Shown: positions 7,291 to 35,990 of the stretch, piece after piece
How positions within the stretch are numbered: the stretch's first letter is position 1
How the letters are laid out: each line of letters opens with the position of its first letter
DNA from: Bacteroidota bacterium
Lineage (GTDB): Bacteria; Bacteroidota; Bacteroidia; Palsa-965
DNA length: 47,948 nucleotides
Direction: 5' to 3'
Assembly: GCA_013289095.1 (NCBI GenBank)
Contig: JABDAO010000011.1
Location: 1-47,948, forward strand
Position numbers and translations under genes: made by a program
The notes under the pieces: generated by a model
Told to the model about the DNA's origin: nothing
The model's input: only the letters and a program-made list of their open reading frames with translations
Databases searched by the model: none

Positions 7291-7325
7291 CATGCCTCTC
7301 TCCGGCAGGACGCAGCCTCGATAAG

Positions 7326-8010
7326 GAACCTCGGGGAACATGTCGGGAACCTAAGGGAACGTGTCGGGAACCTTGGGGAGCATGTCGGGAACCAAAGGGA
7401 ACATGTCGGGAAACTAAGGGAACGTGTCGGGAACCTTGGGGAGCATGTCGGGAACCAAAGGGAACATGTCGGGAACCTAAGGGAACGTGTCGGGAACCTT
7501 GGGGAACGTGTCGGGAACCTCAGGGAACATGTCGGGAACCTCGGGGAACATGTCGGGAACCTTGGGGAGCATGTCGGGAACCTAAGGGAACGTGTCGGGA
7601 ACCTTGGGGAGCATGTCGGGAACCTCAGGGAACATGTCGGGAACCTCGGGGAACGTGTCGATAACCTTAGGGAACATGTCGGGAACCTTGGGGAACGTGT
7701 CGGGAAACTCAGGGAACATGTCGGGAACCTTAGTGAACGTGTCGGGAAACTAAGGGAACATGTCGGGAAACTAAGGGAACGTGTCGGGAACCTTGGGGAG
7801 CATGTCGGGAACCTCAGGGAACATGTCGGGAACCTCGGGGAACGTGTCGATAACCTTAGGGAACATGTCGGGAACCTTGGGGAACGTGTCGGGAAACTCA
7901 GGGAACATGTCGGGAACCTCAGGGAACGTGTAAGGAACCTTAGGGAATGTGTCGGGAACCCTGAACATGTCGGGAGCCCTGGGGAGCATGTCGGGAACCC
8001 CAAGGAATGA
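7326..8010. repeat. ~32-copy 21-bp tandem repeat (consensus CGGGAACCTNRGGGAACRTGT)
   Basis: tgtcggg recurs from 7341 to 7989; 648 bp fits 30 x 21 plus one 18-bp unit. GGGAAC recurs twice per unit, spaced 10/11 bp. Confidence 0.97.
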
Positions 8011-11239: not shown

Positions 11240-11313
11240 GGATCGGTAGTTCAGCTGGTTAGAATGCCGCCCTGTCACGGCGGAGGTCGCGGGTTCGAGT
11301 CCCGTCCGGTCCG
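11240..11313 (+). tRNA. tRNA-Asp(GTC)
   Basis: GGATCGG TAGTTCAGCTGGTTAGAAT GCCGCCCTGTCACGGCGG AGGTC GCGGGTTCGAGTCCCGT CCGGTCC G; full cloverleaf pairing, anticodon GTC, CCA not encoded. Confidence 0.97.
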
Positions 11314-11326
11314 CAACTACAAATAG

Positions 11327-11361
11327 AAAAGCCCTGTATATCAATGATGTACGGGGCTTTT
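11327..11361 (+). terminator. hairpin downstream of tRNA-Asp
   Basis: AAAAGCCCTGTATATCAATGATGTACGGGGCTTTT inverted repeat followed by T-rich sequence. Confidence 0.75.
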
Positions 11362-11370
11362 GATTTGGCT

Positions 11371-11390
11371 GTTGTCGGTTTCGTTGTCGG
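11371..11390. promoter_or_regulatory. putative integrase arm-type direct repeats, left end
   Basis: GTTGTCGGTTTC GTTGTCGG; matched by GTTGTCGGTTTT x2 at the other element end. Confidence 0.45.
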
Positions 11391-11425
11391 ATTGAGAGCT
11401 TTAGAACATAATGCCCAATCTGAAA

Positions 11426-12412
11426 CTATTCTAACTCCGAATCAATATCCTGAACCATTTTTACCAATTCAGGAGTTGGTGAAAATTGGGTAAGTACCTG
11501 ATCGGTTTCCTTATTGACCCAATCTAATTTAGACTGATCGTATTTCCAATCTTTGGAATCTGTTAATATGATAGTTTCATTTTCTTTTGAAGAGGCAGGC
11601 ATTTTGAAACCAAAATGCTCGACTAGATGGCGGCCCTTCATTGCGTTCAGAATGTTATAAATAGCCATTGCATAAACCCGCTCTGCTCCTTTCCTCTTTT
11701 CTTTTTTATCCGGGTTCGGCTGGGTAAAGATTTTGGTTCCGTATTTTATGGTTTCTATCAAATCCTTTTCCATATCTACAATCGGTCGCATGTGTTGAGC
11801 CTTCCTGCTGGTAAATATTTGCTTGTCCGATTTCCAGAGGTTGAGCCATTCATCAATTAAGATTTCAGCCATTTTTTTATTAGCGACCACAATATGAAAA
11901 TGGGGGTTGTACGTCCTTTTCATGGAATTAAAGTTACATTCCAATGCTCTGATTCCACTCAACTTCATGCCAGTACCCCGGTCATTCCTTTTTTTATACT
12001 TAGCGACAATTTTGTTGAACCCTCTTATCATGCCTTCGTTAATCCATTTGTTGAGATTCTTTGCAGGAATAGCTTTTACGGTAAGGGTAACAAAATAAGG
12101 GGCTTCCCAGTGTTTAAGGACAGGATAATATTTATTTATCATAACAGCTTTTTTGTTTCCAGCACATACGGTACAAATACGACTTCTGCAATAATTGGCC
12201 GAATACATTCGACCGTTTGCTGTCGTGACTTTATCTAAGCAGTAGTAAGCATTCCAAAGAGATTTCTGAAACCGTTTGTTTCCTTTTTTTTCTGCAATTT
12301 CTAACAGGACTTTTATTAATATCCGGGAAATCATTTTCTTTTTTCCCCTGCTTTGTTGCAATTTTTGATCCGTCAAATCACTGCCTTTCCCTTTTACTAA
12401 TCGTTGTTTCAT
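11426..12412 (-). CDS. rolling-circle replication initiator (Rep_1-like HUH endonuclease)
   Basis: 328 aa; HUH-type motif TYNPHFHIVVANK, upstream PYFVTLTVKA (motif I), downstream DLIETIKYGTKI with candidate catalytic Tyr. Confidence 0.82.
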   Translation of the reverse strand: MKQRLVKGKGSDLTDQKLQQSRGKKKMISRILIKVLLEIAEKKGNKRFQKSLWNAYYCLDKVTTANGRMYSANYCRSRICTVCAGNKKAVMINKYYPVLKHWEAPYFVTLTVKAIPAKNLNKWINEGMIRGFNKIVAKYKKRNDRGTGMKLSGIRALECNFNSMKRTYNPHFHIVVANKKMAEILIDEWLNLWKSDKQIFTSRKAQHMRPIVDMEKDLIETIKYGTKIFTQPNPDKKEKRKGAERVYAMAIYNILNAMKGRHLVEHFGFKMPASSKENETIILTDSKDWKYDQSKLDWVNKETDQVLTQFSPTPELVKMVQDIDSELE

Positions 12413-12499
12413 GGCTTTTGGGTTATTTTATTTGTCCTGAATATTTCTAATGTATCAAGCATCCCGTTCCGAAATTTCGGTTGGAATGGGGGGAATCAG

Positions 12500-12790
12500 T
12501 TATCCCCGGCGGTATTTTACCGACTGAACTTTGCTAACAGAATTTTCTACCTCTGCCTTTTTATACCGAACACGTGACTGAATACGGTATGAGGGGATTG
12601 TACCCAGCTTGCTCCATTCGTTAAGCGTAGGCAAACTTATTCCCAAAATTGCAGCGGCCTGATTCCGGGTAATAAACTCGGTTTCGGGAAGATGTTCGGG
12701 ACTGTGGCTTTTGAGTTCTGACTTAACGCAATCTCTGATTAGCGTTTCAAAATCTTTTAGAGAAATTGGGGAAAGAATAAAATCATTCAT
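12500..12790 (-). CDS. helix-turn-helix (HTH_17/excisionase-like) DNA-binding protein
   Basis: EFITRNQAAAILGISLPTLNEWSKLGTIPSYRIQSRVRYKKAEVEN; internal ATG at 12790 (MNDFILSP) is the likelier start of the track ORF 12500-12838. Confidence 0.85.
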   Translation of the reverse strand: MNDFILSPISLKDFETLIRDCVKSELKSHSPEHLPETEFITRNQAAAILGISLPTLNEWSKLGTIPSYRIQSRVRYKKAEVENSVSKVQSVKYRRG

Positions 12791-12887
12791 GGCGTAAGAA
12801 TATGCCACAAAGCACCAACAAAAAAAAAAGGAAATCAAGAAATAAGGAAGGACAAAGACAACTTGTCTCTGGACAAAGACAACTTGT

Positions 12888-14624
12888 CTAAGTATTACGA
12901 ATGGCTCTTTCGAGGGTTTTAGGACTTATACGATGCTTTTCACAGGTGGCTTTTTCAGCTTTATTGTGTGAGTATTTTTTATTCCGGGTGAAACGGTTAT
13001 AGGTTGCGAGGTATTCCTTATACTTTACTTCTGTACTTGGGAGTTTTTTTCGTTGGGTTTTACCTACCGACTTCGATGAAACAAGCGTAGGTTTGTTAGC
13101 ATTTTTTCCATCCTCGGTGTAAGGGTCCTCGGCAATTTGCTCATGCGAACAGACTTCAAAATCCTTAAAAAGAAGAGGGTGTTTTATTTTCAGTTCATCT
13201 ACCTTGCTAACTATGCCTGAATCGAAACCATATTCTTTGATTATTGTTTTATTCACAATTTCCCAAAAATCATTTTTGGCATGTACCCACCCCTTATGAC
13301 CGCCTTCGCAACCAGAGTGAAAATAATTTGTGTGAAGTGTCCTAATGTAGGTTTTGGCGTTCGCGCCATACAACGTGTCTGGAGTTAGAGCAAAATTATC
13401 TTCAAAATACTTTACCCCCTCCGCAAAGGCTTGACAGTAAACCCCAACATAGTTTCTGCCATTAAATGTTTCATTAATGTTTTCATCCGAGTTCCATGCC
13501 GGAATTTGTCTGGAATTTAATATTAGCATCAAATATGGGGAGTAAACCGGAATCTTAAACGGGTACTCCTTTCTGGAGAAAGTGAAGCTGTCGATTCCTT
13601 TAAAGTGTTGTAAGTTTTTGTTATCCCTAAAATATTCAAGATCAATAAAATAGCTATGTAACTCCTCTTTGGTTCTGTCCTTTAGCTGTTGAAGTGGCGG
13701 GGCCGTTTGAATGATGTTATTAATTTCACTAGGTGGTTCAGGTTTCGCTAATGGAGCTATCGTAAACGGAAATTCATTTTGAAAGTAAGAGGGGGTTTCA
13801 AGGACAAGCAACCAAGCACGGTAATTCCTTCCAACCTCTTCACCCATTTCGTAAAATGCATTTGCTTCATAATAAGCATTTTCATTCGCTAGGGCTTTTT
13901 TGCCCTGATTTTTATATGTGGTAGTAAATCCATGTGCCATATTAATATTGATCGCTTTTAGAATTAATTCCTTAATGTTTTCAGGAGTGGAAATAAAGGG
14001 AGTGAAGGTTGTTTCAAATCCTTTTAGAAATCCAATGGCATAACAGTCGAAAACCATGAGAAATTCATCTGCTAATCTTTTATTATCCTTATGAGAAAAG
14101 CAAAGTAGTTCGTAGGAGCCATGTAGAACAGGAATGCATTTGGCAGTGGCAGTGTCAATGTAGATGAATTTGTTTCGTTCCATGTAATAGGTCATTACAT
14201 TTTCAGGAACAAAACCCATTTGGAAATTCAGTTTGTGTTTTCCTTTGTCAAAAGAAATGATGTCAATAGAAAGGTTGAATTGTTTTGGGAGTTTATTTGC
14301 AACCTGCCAGCTTTCCTTTTCTTTTTCTACTCTCGCTCTAATTTCGTTCTCTCGTTCGGCATTGTCTCTAAGGAAATTAAGAAAATTCTCTTTAGTAAAT
14401 TCTTTGCAATAGGACTGTTCATTTTCTATTTCTATGCCTTTATTTACTCTCAAATAATTCAGGAATGCTCCTTCGTGAATTTGCTTAAAAATAGCCTTAC
14501 TAACTTCAATTTCTTTCGGATTTTTTCCTTCACATTCACCTAGTGGAATAGCTCCCCAGAGAATTGCATCTTCAAATAATTCATCAAAGGATTTGTATGT
14601 CTTTTCGATTTCCATTACATCCAC
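12888..14624 (-). CDS. 578-aa protein of unknown function (element cargo)
   Basis: Long ORF with GTG start directly after the upstream stop; no family recognised. Basic C-terminus NRFTRNKKYSHNKAEKATCEKHRISPKTLERAIRNT. Confidence 0.85.
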   Translation of the reverse strand: MDVMEIEKTYKSFDELFEDAILWGAIPLGECEGKNPKEIEVSKAIFKQIHEGAFLNYLRVNKGIEIENEQSYCKEFTKENFLNFLRDNAERENEIRARVEKEKESWQVANKLPKQFNLSIDIISFDKGKHKLNFQMGFVPENVMTYYMERNKFIYIDTATAKCIPVLHGSYELLCFSHKDNKRLADEFLMVFDCYAIGFLKGFETTFTPFISTPENIKELILKAININMAHGFTTTYKNQGKKALANENAYYEANAFYEMGEEVGRNYRAWLLVLETPSYFQNEFPFTIAPLAKPEPPSEINNIIQTAPPLQQLKDRTKEELHSYFIDLEYFRDNKNLQHFKGIDSFTFSRKEYPFKIPVYSPYLMLILNSRQIPAWNSDENINETFNGRNYVGVYCQAFAEGVKYFEDNFALTPDTLYGANAKTYIRTLHTNYFHSGCEGGHKGWVHAKNDFWEIVNKTIIKEYGFDSGIVSKVDELKIKHPLLFKDFEVCSHEQIAEDPYTEDGKNANKPTLVSSKSVGKTQRKKLPSTEVKYKEYLATYNRFTRNKKYSHNKAEKATCEKHRISPKTLERAIRNT

Positions 14625-15011
14625 TTAAAACAAAGAAAGCTGGCTATCATCATCCTGAACCTGTCGTTTAAGCCGGGATTGGTGAACAGGCTTATCTACC
14701 TCTTCAAATATTTCCTGCCTTTCTTCACTCTTAGCAACAACCGTTTCAATGTCAGCAATAGCCAATTCAATCTCATTGGGAGCATCAGGAATATTGTTTT
14801 CCGCTTTGTAAATACGGGCTTCTATAATCTGGCTTCTCCAAATTTCCATCAACTCAAGGGAGGAGGTAAGCCCCTTTTGAATAGCTATATCCGATTGAAG
14901 ATATATTGCTTCCAATTTTTCAGTCAGCTTTCTATCTGACATTGCAGCGAGGAGAGTTATATTTCTCTCTGCATTTTCGAGGGCTTCATGTATCCTAATG
15001 TCGTTACTCAA
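14625..15011 (-). CDS. 128-aa hypothetical protein with C-terminal QLSLF (beta-clamp-binding-like) motif
   Basis: ORF overlaps the end of the R-M gene by 8 bp; ends ...QVQDDDSQLSLF*. Confidence 0.85.
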   Translation of the reverse strand: MSNDIRIHEALENAERNITLLAAMSDRKLTEKLEAIYLQSDIAIQKGLTSSLELMEIWRSQIIEARIYKAENNIPDAPNEIELAIADIETVVAKSEERQEIFEEVDKPVHQSRLKRQVQDDDSQLSLF

Positions 15012-17826
15012 GGATACCTCCTTCCACTATTTTTATGTCAGCTTCAGTCAGATCGTATAATTTGTAAATGAGATGATTTATCTTCTCCTCATTATGTTCT
15101 ATCCGTTGTTTTGTTTGCTCAATTTTAGTTTGAAGCGAAATGTCTTTTAATTCCTCATTCAGGGTCAGAAGAGAATCAACACACTTAACGATTTCATCAT
15201 GCCACCCTTTTTCTTCTTTCTTTGAGAAATCAATCATCGAAATTGGAATTGCTTCGATCTCTGATTTTTTTATTTTCGGAAAAATAGTCTTGAAATCTGA
15301 ATTGACTTTTCTCCAAAACCATTTACCCAAATGGCTATTGATTATTGCAAGAATATATTTTAATGAATAATCCGTTATCGAAATTAAATTGTATAGCGTA
15401 TTTAGGGTGTAATAATTCCGTCCGTCAAACGTGGCAACCGGAGTATTCCCGATTTGCCGAATTAGTATTTTGTTGTTTAGAAAATATTTCTCATCCCTTT
15501 TTCTATGCAGTAAATCTCCATAATGCACATAAATGCCCCTCCAGTTAGTTTTATAACTGTTAATGTCTTTTCCGTCTAATACCTTTTTCCATGACTTGCT
15601 TTTCGCTTTATTAGAGAGGAAATCTTCTTTAGTATTTGTGCCATGACTTCCTCCCAATTGAATACCAATGCAGGTATCCGTGATTTCTCCAAGATGAATT
15701 GAATTTGCTTCAATTCGATTAAGGAGGTCTTCTGTTGAATCATCATTAGCGACATTAAACTTGAAATTTTGATTTGATAAAAACTTCTTAGTCGAAATCT
15801 TTGTAACACTTTCCCCCTCAATGGTTATAACGCTATCTTTAAGGCTTAAACTATTACTCACAACCAATATAACCGTTTCAACCTGTGCATCTTCAAAAAC
15901 TCTATTCTTAAATACTCGGATAGTTTCCAGTGAATAGCTTTGTAAAATCAGTTGTCTGATTTTTGTAGCATTTTCATTTACAAGAATTGTATTAGGAATG
16001 ATGAAGCTGAATTTTCCGTTTTTCTTTAAAAGAGACAGGGCCTTTTCGCAAAAAAAGACATATAAATCATATTTCCCTCCGTATGATTTATATTTCGTTG
16101 AAATGTACGTCTTTATTGAATCGTCAAAGGTTTCCCTTCCTAAAACATAAGGAGGATTCCCAATTACTACATCAAATCCACCCTGCTTAAATATTTCTGA
16201 AAATCCCTTTTTCCAGTTAAATGGCTTTATTTTGCGTTCGTACCCTAAATCAATTTCGCTGTCATAAAAATCAGTATCAATTAAGCTATTTCCATTTTTA
16301 ATATTGTTGTCAAGGTCAGGTAGAACTCGTTCGTGAAATAGACTTATCTGTTGCTTAATGGAGGCTTCCGTCTCTCCTTCCATACATTTGAGCAACAAAC
16401 TAAGTTTTGTTACCTCAACAGCGTTTGAATCAATATCAACGCCAAAAATATTATTGAGAAGGATGCGTTTTTTTTCATGAGTGGTTAGAGTGCCTTGGGG
16501 AGTGAAAGGGTTATCTTTTCCTCTTTTCGTTACGTATCCCTTTTCGTGATACCAATTGACGTGATGGTTCAGCAGATACTCAAAAGCACCAACCAGAAAA
16601 GAACCGCTACCGCAAGCGGGGTCCACAATGGTTATTTTCTCAATTTCTTTGGGTGATTTGCCGTCAATGAGTTTTCCGACCGTGTTTTTTACAATGTATT
16701 CAACAATGTACTGAGGGGTGTAAAAAACGCCTCCGGCTTTTCTTACTTCCGGTTTCTCTTCAATTTTTACTCCCCTTGCCGGAGTTATCCGAATTACCTT
16801 GCCCAAAAATTGCTCGTAGGCATTGCCCAAAATCTCAACTGGCATTACCGAAAATTCGTAGTTACATAAGGGGTAATACAATTCATCAACTACAATTTTC
16901 AGAACCTTGTTATCAACTTTGAGTTTTGGAGTAATAACGTCTTTCTCGAAATCGAATAGGCCGGAATTGTATTTGTCATCTGCCTGCTGAAACAGATCGA
17001 ACAGATTTTTATAGGAATCGCCCTTTGATACGGCTTTTTGCAATTGTCCGTAGGGTTCAACGGCCCGGTCTTCGCAAAAGCGGAGGAAGATCAAACGGTC
17101 AATTGTTTGCTGAACAGCAAAGTTCAGCTCCTCATCATCTATTTTTTTGTTGTTAAAGGCAATGCTTTTGGCAAGGTATTGCCTCCATTCGTCCAAGCTC
17201 TTTACAAAGCGCTTATCCAGTGTGTCGGTTCCGCGCTTGCTTGCAGAACTCTGAACAAACTTATCAAAACGGCCCTTGGTAACTGCTTCGTGTGAAAACG
17301 TGTCGTAAAGGAAATCAAAATCTTTGCCGAAGTCCTCAAAACCGATGTATTTTAACCGGGCTACATTTGCGCTGTCGTTCAGGTTTGGGACTTTGGAGCA
17401 ATCGTAAACGATAAACTCCTCAAAATTGGTAAGGATTGAAACGTAGGCTTGTGCGCTGCTTCCGTAACGTCTTAGTTGATAAGCAGACTCTTTGTTTGCC
17501 TTGAGGGAAACGGAGGGCTTTTTAGCCTCAACGTAGAACAGACGTTTTGTTGTGCTACCAGAAAGACGAAAACCGTAATCCGGAGCTTTTGCTCTGTCTT
17601 TTCTTCCCTCCCGGACAACTACCTTGTCCTCGTAAATTACTTCCCGGTATGCTTCAGAATCACCCTTTTCATTGTCTATATCCCAGCCCAATGCTTTAAA
17701 AAACGGATTAATAAAGTCCTGTCTGGTCTTCTGTTCATTGTAATCGGGCAAATGATAGTCTTTCCGGTGTTCCCGGAATCGTTCAACAAGTGCTTCTATG
17801 ATGGATTTGGCTTGCTCTCTGGACAT
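15004..17826 (-). CDS. Type IIG-like restriction-modification enzyme (Eco57I-type methyltransferase fused to HsdR_N-like nuclease)
   Basis: PD-(D/E)xK-like APDYGFRLSGSTTKRLFYVEAKKPSV; methyltransferase motifs ITIVDPACGSGSFLVGAFEYLL and VVIGNPPYVLG; C-terminal TaqI-like specificity region. Likely start MSREQAKS at 17826 within ORF 15004-17880. Confidence 0.92.
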   Translation of the reverse strand: MSREQAKSIIEALVERFREHRKDYHLPDYNEQKTRQDFINPFFKALGWDIDNEKGDSEAYREVIYEDKVVVREGRKDRAKAPDYGFRLSGSTTKRLFYVEAKKPSVSLKANKESAYQLRRYGSSAQAYVSILTNFEEFIVYDCSKVPNLNDSANVARLKYIGFEDFGKDFDFLYDTFSHEAVTKGRFDKFVQSSASKRGTDTLDKRFVKSLDEWRQYLAKSIAFNNKKIDDEELNFAVQQTIDRLIFLRFCEDRAVEPYGQLQKAVSKGDSYKNLFDLFQQADDKYNSGLFDFEKDVITPKLKVDNKVLKIVVDELYYPLCNYEFSVMPVEILGNAYEQFLGKVIRITPARGVKIEEKPEVRKAGGVFYTPQYIVEYIVKNTVGKLIDGKSPKEIEKITIVDPACGSGSFLVGAFEYLLNHHVNWYHEKGYVTKRGKDNPFTPQGTLTTHEKKRILLNNIFGVDIDSNAVEVTKLSLLLKCMEGETEASIKQQISLFHERVLPDLDNNIKNGNSLIDTDFYDSEIDLGYERKIKPFNWKKGFSEIFKQGGFDVVIGNPPYVLGRETFDDSIKTYISTKYKSYGGKYDLYVFFCEKALSLLKKNGKFSFIIPNTILVNENATKIRQLILQSYSLETIRVFKNRVFEDAQVETVILVVSNSLSLKDSVITIEGESVTKISTKKFLSNQNFKFNVANDDSTEDLLNRIEANSIHLGEITDTCIGIQLGGSHGTNTKEDFLSNKAKSKSWKKVLDGKDINSYKTNWRGIYVHYGDLLHRKRDEKYFLNNKILIRQIGNTPVATFDGRNYYTLNTLYNLISITDYSLKYILAIINSHLGKWFWRKVNSDFKTIFPKIKKSEIEAIPISMIDFSKKEEKGWHDEIVKCVDSLLTLNEELKDISLQTKIEQTKQRIEHNEEKINHLIYKLYDLTEADIKIVEGGILE

Positions 17827-17982
17827 AAATTGGTTAAAGGAGGTTAAATATAGCCAAATGGAGGAAAGTATTGGGGGCAATGAGGGAAATATTCTGTTTT
17901 TTTACAAACGTTAGGACGGAACGAAAAAGGAGTCCGTTGTGGACTCCTTTTTCATTGTAAAATGACAATTGACCGGGAAGGG

Positions 17983-18282
17983 TTATTTATGTGCAAGGTT
18001 CTTAACATCATTGATATAATCCTTGATGAGAGTAACCATAGTAGGCGTATGATCTGCGAGTAGAAACCGGCCCTTGATAAAGTCAAAACCATGTTTTTCA
18101 ACAAGCGAGCCTATGGAAGAGTTCAAAAATGAACTTGACATCGGGGTACATGCTTTTAATGAAAGAACAATGATAGAACCGTTGGTTAAAGCCTTGTCCA
18201 TTGCTAAAAAAAGCAAGACCCCCTCAGTATTTGTGGAGGTTCCGGTTACTATATCCTTAACTACAATTATTTCCTTTTTCAT
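17983..18282 (-). CDS. STAS-like domain protein (DUF4325-like)
   Basis: 99 aa MKKEIIVVKDIVTGTSTNTEGVLLFLAMDKALTNGSIIVLSLKACTPMSSSFLNSSIGSLVEKHG; layout matches STAS-like DUF4325 (by eye). Confidence 0.7.
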   Translation of the reverse strand: MKKEIIVVKDIVTGTSTNTEGVLLFLAMDKALTNGSIIVLSLKACTPMSSSFLNSSIGSLVEKHGFDFIKGRFLLADHTPTMVTLIKDYINDVKNLAHK

Positions 18283-18289
18283 AACAGTT

Positions 18290-18356
18290 CGTCAAAGGTA
18301 CGACAAAAACAGGACAAAAATATGACAAAAACCGGGCAAGAGTATGATAGAAATCG
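18290..18356. repeat. 11-bp-period direct repeat upstream of the STAS-like gene
   Basis: GTCAAAGGTAC GACAAAAACAG GACAAAAATAT GACAAAAACCG GGCAAGAGTAT GATAGAAATCG: six contiguous 11-bp units. Confidence 0.7.
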
Positions 18357-18365
18357 GGGTGTTTC

Positions 18366-19271
18366 TTAAAATAGCTCAACTTCCTCCGAAGATTCAGCTT
18401 CAAGTAATTGAAAATGAGATGTATTCAGCTTTATCACCAAATACGTTCCCGGAAATGAAAATGCAAGGTTATCTAATTCTGATTTAACGTTTACGCTTTG
18501 AATTTGTTTCGAATAAAACGCCCGGTTGGATACAATTGTTATTTCACCCTTATTTGCTTTAACGATAGTGAGAATTATGTCTAATCCAAAGCCCCGGTTG
18601 TGAGGGTTGCTTTTTGTTGAAAAACCCAACTCTAAAGCCTTTTGAAGAGCCTGACTGTCATCTAACCTACCTTTCACGTCACCTATAAATTCATTCACCT
18701 TATTGGGGATACCCTTCCCAAAATCACATATTGAAATACAAAGCTCCGACTTCTGTTTGTAGAATTGAGTTGCGATAAATCCACTCACTTTGGATTCAGA
18801 ATGATCGGTAATGTTATTTAATGCTTCTACAACCGTTAGCCTCAATGGGGTTAAATCTTTCTCCTTCAGAGAATGAGCAGCATAGAAATTTTGTATCACA
18901 CCAGCAAAAGCATCAATATTTTCGACCTTGTGTTTCCAGATTGGCATTGTATTGGTTAACCGGGCTTTGAGGCAATAATTCCTATTTGAATTGCTTGTCC
19001 AATACTGATCAAATTTAGAGTATTTGATAAAATTGCCGGAATCAGTACCCTCTCTGTATAATATCCTGATTCTTGCTCCTGACAGCCTGTATTCTTCAAT
19101 TAAACAAGCCAGAGAAGTTAAATGGTAAGGAAAGAGAAACGAGATTTGGCGAAAATCAAAAATGAATAATCTCCCCGCGTTAGACCTATCTGAGTTACGG
19201 TTATTGACAATGAAACGTAACCACTCGACTAAGTGTTCGCAATTGGGTATTTTAATGGTAATCTTTTGCAA
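18366..19271 (-). CDS. STAS-like N-terminus fused to GHKL/HATPase_c ATP-binding domain
   Basis: 301 aa; N-box VEALNNITDHSES, G1 SICDFGKGIPNKV, G2 NPHNRGFGLDIILTIVKANKGEI; N-terminal LFIFDFRQISFLFPYHLTSLACLIEEY resembles a STAS domain. Confidence 0.85.
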   Translation of the reverse strand: MQKITIKIPNCEHLVEWLRFIVNNRNSDRSNAGRLFIFDFRQISFLFPYHLTSLACLIEEYRLSGARIRILYREGTDSGNFIKYSKFDQYWTSNSNRNYCLKARLTNTMPIWKHKVENIDAFAGVIQNFYAAHSLKEKDLTPLRLTVVEALNNITDHSESKVSGFIATQFYKQKSELCISICDFGKGIPNKVNEFIGDVKGRLDDSQALQKALELGFSTKSNPHNRGFGLDIILTIVKANKGEITIVSNRAFYSKQIQSVNVKSELDNLAFSFPGTYLVIKLNTSHFQLLEAESSEEVELF

Positions 19272-19380
19272 AATCAGCTATGGTTTAGAGAAATGGATAC
19301 AATCCAATCTAATTTCAAAAGTACAGGTAAAAAAATCTGATATTAATTTACGACCGAAAGTTGCAAAGAGTTTACTCATT

Positions 19381-20685
19381 TCAGACTGCAACAAGCCTCT
19401 GTTTTTCCTGCCAATGCAACCTCAACAGATTAGCATTCTCATTCGGTGTAATCTTGATATACCTCATAAACGCTTTTTCTGTCCGGTGTCCGGTTATCTT
19501 CATAATCGAAATAGCAGGGAATCCACTAAGATACAGATTTGAAGCAAAACTCCTCCGGGCCGTATGTGTGGTAACAAGCTCAAATTTTTTCCGGTTTGTA
19601 GAAATGTTCAGACCTCCTTTGGTAATGCTTGTTGAGGTTTTGGCATGGAGGCTTTCAACCATGTGTCCCAGCTCTTTCAGGTATTGATTCATTTTTACGT
19701 TGGAAATAGCCGGGGGCAATGAGTTGGGATATTTTCCTTTATACTTTGCCATTATCTTCTTAACGGTCGGATGAATCGGAATTACAACCGTTTCCCCTGT
19801 CTTTTGGGTTTCAAGCTCAATTTCTTCGATTTTGATGTTTTCAGGCTGGATATTTGAAAAGTCAGAAAAGCGTAAACCAGTCCAGCATCCGACAATAAAT
19901 AGATCCCGTATCCGGTCCAAGCGCGGGTTATCTGATAAATCCAAAGCGCATATTTCGGCAAGCTCTGATTCTGTCAGGTAAATGCTCTCTGTATCTTCCC
20001 GGATAACCCTAAACCGTTTGCTTTTGTGTGAAAGGTTCGTGCTTAGACCCCGTTCAGTAGCTTCATTCAAAAAGGTTTTGAGCGTTTTCATGTGTTTGCC
20101 TATGGTATTATTGGCAAAACCCAGGTCTTTGGTCAGGTATTCGGTAAAGTCGTGGTAAAAGTCCAGATCAATGGTATCAAAGTCAATCCGTTTCCGTTTG
20201 AGCTGTTTGAAGTTCCGCAATACCTGTAAGGTGTTCCGGTAAATCTGAATAGTGTCTTTGGAGAAAGTCTTCCCCGTCTTTTCGTTTACTCGTACTCTGG
20301 ATTCCTCAATGAATTTTTCAGTGAACCGGAATAAATCCAACTTTATGGTTTCGGCTTCCGGGTTCAGCTTTTTATTCAACAGGTCGCGGAACTCTTCGAT
20401 TGAAGGGAGCTTGTTTTCATTGTCGTTTTGATATTGTCTGAAAACGTCTTTTGCGGAGCTTTCCAGAAAGTTCAGACGGGCGTTAAATTCCGGGTGTTCC
20501 GGGAATGTCTTTGTTTCTTTCGCCCGCTGGTAATTCCGTTTGTCGGGGTCTGATTCCCAAAATTTCGGGTAAATGCTCTCTTTGGTAGGATAAACGAGCC
20601 TGTTGTTATTCCACCGGATAACGAGATGTATAGCTGTTTCTGTGGAGGTTCCTGCTTCCCGGAGGTTGAAATTGAATTTTGCCAT
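19381..20685 (-). CDS. tyrosine-type site-specific recombinase (integrase)
   Basis: 434 aa; WTGLRFSDFSNI (box I Arg), HTARRSFASNLYLSGFPAISIMKITGHRTEKAFMRYIKI (box II H-x-x-R, H/Y). Confidence 0.96.
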   Translation of the reverse strand: MAKFNFNLREAGTSTETAIHLVIRWNNNRLVYPTKESIYPKFWESDPDKRNYQRAKETKTFPEHPEFNARLNFLESSAKDVFRQYQNDNENKLPSIEEFRDLLNKKLNPEAETIKLDLFRFTEKFIEESRVRVNEKTGKTFSKDTIQIYRNTLQVLRNFKQLKRKRIDFDTIDLDFYHDFTEYLTKDLGFANNTIGKHMKTLKTFLNEATERGLSTNLSHKSKRFRVIREDTESIYLTESELAEICALDLSDNPRLDRIRDLFIVGCWTGLRFSDFSNIQPENIKIEEIELETQKTGETVVIPIHPTVKKIMAKYKGKYPNSLPPAISNVKMNQYLKELGHMVESLHAKTSTSITKGGLNISTNRKKFELVTTHTARRSFASNLYLSGFPAISIMKITGHRTEKAFMRYIKITPNENANLLRLHWQEKQRLVAV

Positions 20686-20734
20686 TTTGTGCTGTTTGGA
20701 TTAACGAAATACAAAAATAGGCTTTCTTTTTTCT

Positions 20735-20758
20735 GTTGTCGGTTTTGTTGTCGGTTTT
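20735..20758. promoter_or_regulatory. putative integrase arm-type direct repeats, right end
   Basis: GTTGTCGGTTTTGTTGTCGGTTTT between int start and attR. Confidence 0.45.
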
Positions 20759-20900
20759 CTTTAATTATCCCTTATTTTGCTTAATCGTTCTTTTCTTCAT
20801 AATCTCTGAAAAGCCCAATAGATAAGGGAAGTACGAAAGGAATCGGGAAAAGCCGGAAACAAAGGTAGCGGTCCCGTCCGGTCCGCAAACACAAAAAGAG

Positions 20901-20936
20901 AAGCCCTGTATATCAATGATATATAGGGCTTTTTAT
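20901..20936. terminator. attR-side copy of the tRNA-Asp hairpin
   Basis: AAGCCCTGTATATCAATGATATATAGGGCTTTTT. Confidence 0.65.
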
Positions 20937-20944
20937 TTAACTTA

Positions 20945-21245
20945 TACCCCGTCCAGTAGCTTCATTCAGGAAGGTTTTGAGGGTTTTCATGTGTAGTATT
21001 GAGCTTTATCACCAAATATGTGCCCGGAAATGAAAATGCAAGGTTATCTGCCTCTGATTTAACGTTTCTGCTTTTAATTTGCTTCGAATAAAACGCCCGG
21101 TTAGACACAATCGTTATTTCGCCCTTGTTTGCTTTAACGATAGTGAGAATTGTGTCTACTCCAAATCCCCGGTTGTGAGGATTGCTTTTTGTTGAAAACC
21201 CCAATTCCAAAGCCTTTTGAAGAGCCTGACTGTCATCTAATACGC
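20945..21245 (-). pseudogene. decayed fragments of a second integrase and a second HATPase gene
   Basis: 20947-20993 (ACCCCGTCCAGTAGCTTCATTCAGGAAGGTTTTGAGGGTTTTCATGTG) matches int at ~20048-20095; 21005-21242 matches the HATPase gene at ~18422-18664 at roughly 90% by eye (DDSQALQKALELGFSTKSNPHNRGFGVDTILTIVKANKGEITIVSNRAFYSKQIK). Confidence 0.9.
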
Positions 21246-21563: not shown

Positions 21564-22268
21564 ATGATCACAAAAAAAGTCATGTTACAAGTAAGCGATG
21601 GCAGCTCCATGCAAGCCTATGTAGCAATACCAGAGGGGCAGGGGCCGTTTCCGGGCGTTCTGGTGCTTCAGGAAGCATTTGGCGTGAATGGGCATATCCG
21701 GGGCATTGCCGAGCGGATTGCAAAGGAGGGTTATCTTGCTATTGCACCCGAATTGTTTCATCGTACAGCCGAACCTGGATTCGAAATCGGGTATACCGTT
21801 GATTTTTCGTTGATCATGCCCCATTTCCAAACCATGACCCCCGAAAGTTTGAGTATGGACATACAGGCGGCATACGACTGGCTGCAACAACAAAACAATG
21901 TCATATCTGCTAAAATAGCCAGTATCGGCTTTTGTCTGGGTGGCAGGGCCACGTTCCTGGCCAATGCCAATCTTCCGCTCTCCGCCGCCATTTCTTTCTA
22001 TGGGGGCCGAACCGATGCCCTGGCTGACAGAGCCCCCCTGCTCCATGCCCCCCATCTGTTTTTCTGGGGAGGCCTGGATAAACACATCGCGCAAGAGCAG
22101 ATTGATACCGTTATCAATGCCGTTAAACAGGCAGGCAAGCCGTATACCAACGTGGTTATTTCGTATGCCGACCATGGCTTTAATTGTGATGACCGGGCCA
22201 GCTATAACAAACAAGCAGCAACCGAAGCATGGGCCTTGTCGATGGCATTCCTGAAGAATAATTTGTAG
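21564..22268 (+). CDS. dienelactone hydrolase family protein
   Basis: 234 aa; FPGVLVLQEAFGVNGHIRGIAERIAKEGYLAIAPELF, IGFCLGGRATFLAN (nucleophile Cys), YADHGFNCDDR. Confidence 0.92.
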   Translation: MITKKVMLQVSDGSSMQAYVAIPEGQGPFPGVLVLQEAFGVNGHIRGIAERIAKEGYLAIAPELFHRTAEPGFEIGYTVDFSLIMPHFQTMTPESLSMDIQAAYDWLQQQNNVISAKIASIGFCLGGRATFLANANLPLSAAISFYGGRTDALADRAPLLHAPHLFFWGGLDKHIAQEQIDTVINAVKQAGKPYTNVVISYADHGFNCDDRASYNKQAATEAWALSMAFLKNNL

Positions 22269-34663: not shown

Positions 34664-34957
34664 AGCTTTTCAAACCTTTTTGATATCAAAAAGGTTTGAA
34701 AACATTCCTCTTAGAACCATTTTGATATCAAAAAGGATTTGATTCACACCTTTCAAAACCATTCTGACATCAAAAATATCTCAATTGATACATTTTAAAA
34801 CTGTTTAGATATCAAAAGATTTTTAATTCAACCCATTTAAAACCTTTTAGATATCAAAAAGGTTTTAATTCAAGCCGTTCAAAACCATTTTGACATCAAA
34901 AAGGTTTTGATTCACATCATTTAAAACCTTTTTGATATCAAAAAGGTTTTATTTGGT
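34664..34957. repeat. 7-copy 42-bp tandem repeat carrying a long palindrome
   Basis: Centre GAtATC/GACATC at 34682, 34724, 34766, 34808, 34850, 34892, 34934: spacing exactly 42 each. Consensus AAAACCTTTTTGATATCAAAAAGGTTTT (28-bp palindrome) + gattcacatcattt. Confidence 0.97.
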
Positions 34958-35687: not shown

Positions 35688-35773
35688 ACGTGAATTTACT
35701 GAATTAAATAGTCGCAAAGATACAGGCAAAGCACCCAGGTTCAAAGAAGAATCCGCTGTACTCCTCTCCTCCT

Positions 35774-35990
35774 CACAAACACACGTTGTCAATAGACAGA
35801 CATACTCATACTCCTGACAAACACACTTTGTCTACAGACAGATATACTCATACTCCAGACAAACACACTTTGCCTACAGACAGAAATACTCATACTCCTG
35901 ACAAACACACTTTGCCTACAGACAGAAATACTCATCCTCCTACCAATTATACCCTGAATATTGACAGACATATTCAAACTCCTGGAAAGC
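35774..35990. repeat. 42-bp tandem repeat made of two related 21-bp halves
   Basis: GACAGA at 35795, 35837, 35879, 35921, 35963 (spacing 42); halves GACAGACATACTCATACTCCT / GACAAACACACTTTGTCTACA both 21 bp and both starting GACAnACA. Confidence 0.95.

Follow-up and report, generated by a model that had tools for sequence, protein, structure and literature searches.

Rep_1 proteins serve as initiators of rolling-circle plasmids. Among them are the Bacteroides plasmid pBFP35 (5.6 kb) and the pC194/pUB110 plasmids, and an initiator of this family, 24-28% identical to those of the pBFP35 group, is encoded by the element that we describe here, which lies in a 47,948-nucleotide stretch of a Bacteroidota genome (contig JABDAO010000011.1, hereafter the window). 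In contrast to this element those plasmids are free, and pBFP35 carries a MOBV relaxase and a toxin-antitoxin system and has no integrase.

Actinomycete AICEs of the pSAM2 type combine tRNA-directed integrases with rolling-circle initiators and an FtsK-type Tra protein (PMC3218068). The window element resembles them in pairing a tyrosine integrase at a tRNA 3' end with a rolling-circle initiator, and may resemble them in replicating after excision, as AICEs do; it differs in having no FtsK/SpoIIIE Tra, in using Rep_1 instead of RepSA/RepAM, and in its Bacteroidota host. The Bacteroidota IMEs NBU1, NBU2 and Tn4555 (PMC5704250) are likewise small and integrative, with a tyrosine integrase and no T4SS of their own, but each has a relaxase of the MobP type; the window element has no relaxase that the scans could find, and a Rep_1 initiator stands in its place. 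A section title of the same source terms the maintenance of excised mobilizable elements unexplored. In Firmicutes, ICEBs1 mobilises three plasmids that have Rep_1 replicons, by way of the plasmids' own Rep (PMC5714925, PMC5357655). A further parallel in description is offered by the strand-biased circularizing integrative elements and similar islands that lack a relaxase, which are also integrative and are described as putatively non-mobilizable (PMC10214605); these come from Gammaproteobacteria.

An intact element integrated at tRNA-Asp

The 3' end of a tRNA-Asp gene is duplicated exactly as the 18-bp sequence GTCCCGTCCGGTCCGCAA, and the two sites occurred in no shuffle of the window (Table 1). 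This confirms the preliminary description of the locus, in which an 18-bp direct repeat of the tRNA end was said to bound about 9.6 kb; one core copy and the interior together measure 9,572 bp. Alignment of both ends showed that the att repeat extends to approximately 68 bp at 88% identity, spanning the tRNA end and a terminator-like hairpin. Downstream of their tRNA-Asp genes the congeners G010 and G008 have other terminators and unrelated sequence, and the shared terminator therefore probably belongs to the element family rather than to the ancestral tRNA locus. GC content is 33-43% within the element versus about 45-51% in most flanking bins.

Table 1 Features of the element and its integration site (window coordinates)
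Feature	Coordinates	Strand	Evidence
tRNA-Asp (gtc), integration target, 3' end reconstituted	11240..11314	+	ARAGORN
attL: tRNA 3' end and terminator-like hairpin; exact 18-bp core 11299-11316	11298..11365	+	68-bp repeat, 88% to attR
Left arm-type integrase sites (putative), TTGTCGG pair, 12-bp spacing	11372..11390	+	Repeat search, shuffles
Rep_1 HUH rolling-circle initiator	11426..12412	-	Pfam PF01446; invariant columns in Rep alignment
HTH_17 protein, excisionase/regulator-like (weakly excisionase-like)	12500..12838	-	Domain matches
Perfect 21-bp direct repeat (1.9 copies) that contains GACAAGTTGTC twice and folds into a hairpin; candidate origin for Rep or operator for the HTH protein	12850..12889
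578-aa protein, no family; occupies the position that the variable X protein has in related elements	12888..14624	-	ORF, domain searches
128-aa protein, overlaps R-M gene	14625..15011	-	ORF
Type IIG restriction-methylation enzyme	15004..17880	-	Eco57I, TaqI_C; PADLOC REase_MTase_IIG 1.6e-197
STAS-like DUF4325 protein	17983..18282	-	Pfam
GHKL/HATPase protein, 301 aa	18366..19271	-	phrog_3364, Pfam
Tyrosine integrase, SAM_5 type	19381..20685	-	Pfam Phage_int_SAM_5 and Phage_integrase
Right arm-type integrase sites (putative)	20736..20754	+	Repeat search, shuffles
attR: exact 18-bp core 20871-20888 and terminator-like hairpin	20871..20938	+	68-bp repeat, 88% to attL
Remains of an earlier relative of the element: int fragment 20941-20994, HATPase fragment 20996-21240	20941..21240	-	Each 91% identical

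The integrase is intact, and its residues K295, R377, H400 and Y409 are invariant across seven elements. Just inside each end of the element the arm repeat TTGTCGGTTTNGTTGTCGG occurs once (0 in 100 shuffles). Judged from its sequence, this layout has the anatomy expected of lambda-like integrase arm-type sites, to which the integrase would bind. With an intact integrase and att repeats that restore the target, the locus has the features of the tyrosine-recombinase integrative elements found at gene 3' ends; its anatomy shows integration with restoration of the tRNA, and the site-specific integration proposed earlier is thus well supported.

Gene content and the replication initiator

All eight genes of the element lie on the minus strand, codirectional as had been described, and have intact, open reading frames. 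The initiator matches Rep_1 at 53.6 bits (cut-off 33.2; 2.9e-14) and contains an HxH motif at H171/H173, a candidate catalytic tyrosine at Y224 and a Cys motif; H171, H173 and Y224 are invariant in the Rep alignment. It accordingly has the HUH domain and candidate tyrosine that define a rolling-circle plasmid Rep. Comparison of the Rep with solved structures gave no meaningful match. Just upstream of the HTH gene lies the repeat with its two GACAAGTTGTC palindromes, which is a candidate for the Rep origin or for an HTH operator. The hairpins before the HTH gene were chosen by eye, and their z-scores do not constitute independent evidence. A k-mer comparison across the elements revealed no common origin motif.

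The restriction gene encodes nuclease, methylase and specificity functions fused in one protein, as defines type IIG, and both PADLOC and Pfam thus bear out the defence-type cargo that had been suggested. The 128-aa protein is likely to be an R-M accessory. The 578-aa protein had no family match in Pfam, PADLOC, PHROG or NCBIfam-type searches, and its structural model (pLDDT 37) was too poor for use. Peptide-pattern scans of a collection of genome contigs returned no direct relatives of it or of the Rep. Between the STAS-like and HATPase genes there is also a 22-bp tandem repeat of 2.1 copies (18302-18347), a possible operator.

Pfam and NCBIfam scans found no relaxase family in the element, so that it lacks the recognised relaxase of an IME, and Pfam found none of the T4SS, coupling protein or FtsK-type Tra genes of ICEs and AICEs. 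No capsid, terminase or other virion gene was detected with Pfam or PHROG. These scans agree with the preliminary description, which had recognised no relaxase, T4SS or phage structural gene.

The same description called the element satellite-like, and for this we found no positive evidence. As a phage satellite it would excise and replicate on helper infection and be packaged into helper particles. Its size of ~10 kb, its int/HTH/replication layout and its defence cargo do resemble those of phage-inducible islands, and the Rep has partial similarity to the Reps of six inovirus records. However, Pfam and PHROG searches, in which the 578-aa and 128-aa proteins had no assignment, revealed neither capsid, terminase or pac genes nor any gene for morphogenesis interference, that is, nothing that would serve packaging or helper interference; the Rep had no PHROG match, and one viral-contig scan with the single Rep sequence as query returned no relative. 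We regard a satellite as highly improbable.

Related elements carry the same module at other genes

Of 388 genomes sampled from the class, 12 contain relatives of the Rep, the window genome counted. In six of them (L047, L048, L049, L050, L051 and L052), none from the family of the window genome, genes for Int, a hypothetical protein (X), HTH and Rep occur in the same order on one strand. Cargo lies between Int and X in L049, as in the window, and L050 has none. Both boundaries could be placed in five of the six, always at gene 3' ends: that of the tmRNA in L047 (Rfam tmRNA; 15-bp core), tRNA-Ser in L048 (core repeat), tRNA-Lys in L049 (46 bp at 98%), secA in L052 (89 bp at 80%) and tRNA-Cys in L061/L051 (core repeat, read by eye at the contig edge). 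No flanking repeat was found for L050, which adjoins mnmE. The int-Rep pairing of the preliminary description, which proposed a search for it at tRNA-Asp in other Bacteroidota, is thus well supported by the recurrence of the module in these six genomes, with tRNA-Ser, tRNA-Lys, tRNA-Cys, tmRNA and secA as the sites placed here.

A paired arm repeat is common to both ends of the window element and of each of the five bounded relatives, with a score matched by none of 1000 shuffles. The arm motif of L051 is nearly that of the window, and its integrase is also the closest (53%). Rep identity is 37-48% in every pair versus 15-56% for Int, which points to Rep as the constant part of the module, with integrases that appear to have been exchanged or to diverge faster. 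The 578-aa protein and the X proteins of L048 and L051 were considered as homologues of a four-member X family, for which hhalign gave no support; a model of the X protein reached pLDDT 62 and had no Foldseek match below E 0.08.

The module has the patchy distribution typical of mobile elements: among 46 genomes of the order to which G117 belongs, only G117 itself has an intact Rep. A phylum-wide Rep search in a different draw of 396 genomes gave one further, distant match outside the window genome, with no integrase beside it. Several other Rep loci are incomplete. The contig of L054 ends just upstream of HTH-Rep, the divergent Reps of L040 and L055 lie on short contigs, and G010 retains a C-terminal Rep fragment (L006). 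Two Reps have no nearby integrase, one on a short contig (L053) and one in the window genome itself (L005), and we count both against the reading of the element as an integrative plasmid. Conversely, a relative of the L052 integrase (70% identical) occurs in G258 (L114, C12) at the 3' end of secA in a Rep-less island with att and arm repeats of its own. Rep is therefore dispensable for DNA mobilisation by integrases of the L052 type.

The second Rep of the window genome (L005; G000:C63, 1749-5028) is 43% identical to the first. It lies on the downstream side of tRNA-Val(tac), next to the candidate defence genes PDC-M04A/B and a gene whose product is of the GIY-YIG type; no integrase or repeat was found at this locus. 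On the same contig (12485-14754), the 3' end of tRNA-Val(gac) is repeated (89%) 2.2 kb downstream, and the one gene between the repeats, of the SLFN_AlbA_2/HATPase_c_4 type, is accompanied by no integrase; the segment may be an island of one gene.

Each of the five related elements that have cargo encodes an R-M system, of type I, ISP or II, compared with type IIG in the window. L048 and L051 have type I systems, L047 has a type ISP system, L049 a type ISP system with an Abi_2 protein, and L052 a DNA methylase together with an endonuclease of the ThaI type. Defence cargo is the rule in this small sample. The presence of several R-M types in five of six related elements, the sixth being cargo-free, suggests a dedicated route by which R-M systems spread among Bacteroidota.

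Since the kit recurs at different genes in bacteria that are only distant relatives, it appears to be a family of plasmid-like travellers, most of them with restriction systems. We tentatively suggest that these may form a Bacteroidota integrative plasmid family, unnamed so far, with one conserved Rep_1 lineage and interchangeable integrases, specialised in carrying R-M systems that guard the host and addict it to the element; Rep would be used to replicate and, when a helper is present, to transfer the element with no need of a dedicated relaxase. Searches of open-access text yielded no description of a Rep_1-plus-integrase family in Bacteroidota, and one may exist elsewhere.

Probable excision, replication and transfer

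Taken together, these features make the window element probably an integrative plasmid, one able to excise, to copy itself in rolling-circle fashion and to travel with the aid of a helper; its intact Int and Rep point to these capacities. We class it as a variant of the integrative plasmid/IME-like elements. The preliminary description had it excising and replicating as a circle, a claim with which the intact Int and Rep are consistent, whereas a direct search for the attP junction in the assembly that contains the element turned up the two integrated halves and nothing else, and the element is present in no plasmid record searched. The empty tRNA-Asp site expected in relatives was not cleanly recovered either: in G010 and G008 the element is absent from tRNA-Asp, but the surrounding genes show no synteny with the window, and a search by flanking genes among relatives of G144, of G060, of G125 and of the window genome found the flanks not conserved and no clean empty site.

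In the mechanism that we propose, Int recombines an attP core, comprising the tRNA-Asp 3' end and terminator, with the tRNA-Asp gene and so restores the 3' end of the gene, a step that the anatomy shows; the paired arm repeats at both ends would be bound by Int. The HTH protein is probably an excisionase or regulator. After excision, the Rep_1 HUH protein would nick an origin, which may lie in the repeat that precedes the HTH gene. Rolling-circle copying of the excised circle would then protect the element from loss. Given a conjugative helper, Rep may double as a relaxase, by analogy with the Reps of pC194/pUB110-type plasmids. The R-M cargo would defend the host and probably makes loss of the element costly to the cell.

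The balance between these roles could be reversed, such that the element is an integrative and mobilizable one whose Rep acts mainly as a relaxase, nicking an oriT for export via a resident conjugative T4SS, with replication secondary. The Rep_1 (PF01446) initiators of pC194, pBS42 and pHP13 do act as relaxases in ICEBs1 mobilisation (PMC5714925, PMC5357655), and the element has no other mobilisation gene. Such activity is, however, documented only with TcpA-type coupling in Firmicutes; the window element has no coupling protein and no demonstrated oriT, and the Bacteroidota IMEs in PMC5704250 use MobP relaxases. We consider this arrangement rather unlikely. For the integrative plasmid, a recurrent compact module that pairs a plasmid initiator with varied integrases and no relaxase makes both replication after excision and Rep-driven transfer directly testable.

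Earlier occupants and surroundings of the site

Outside the right repeat are remnants that match the middle of the int gene and the HATPase gene, in an order that does not fit a single intact element. They are most simply read as the outcome of tandem integration by at least one related element, with later collapse through deletion. Since the remnants of a related element lie beside attR, the site has been hit more than once; recurrent use of tRNA-Asp is supported, and the earlier events may have been one or several. These fragments, the Rep fragment of G010 and the integrase-less Rep locus of the window genome are decayed relatives, as might be expected if the window element were itself a defunct island, the product of an ancient integration that no longer moves. 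Against this, all genes of the window copy are open, its core repeat has no mismatch and each end has its arm sites, and we judge a defunct island improbable.

A dienelactone hydrolase gene is found near tRNA-Asp both in the window (21564-22268, downstream) and in G010 (upstream), with 58-59% identity; the difference in gene order indicates local rearrangement around tRNA-Asp. The window also contains tandem arrays of 21- or 42-bp units at 7325-7999 (32 copies), 34668-34951 (7) and 35769-35983 (5), and similar 42-bp arrays occur at 5296-5526 of L005.
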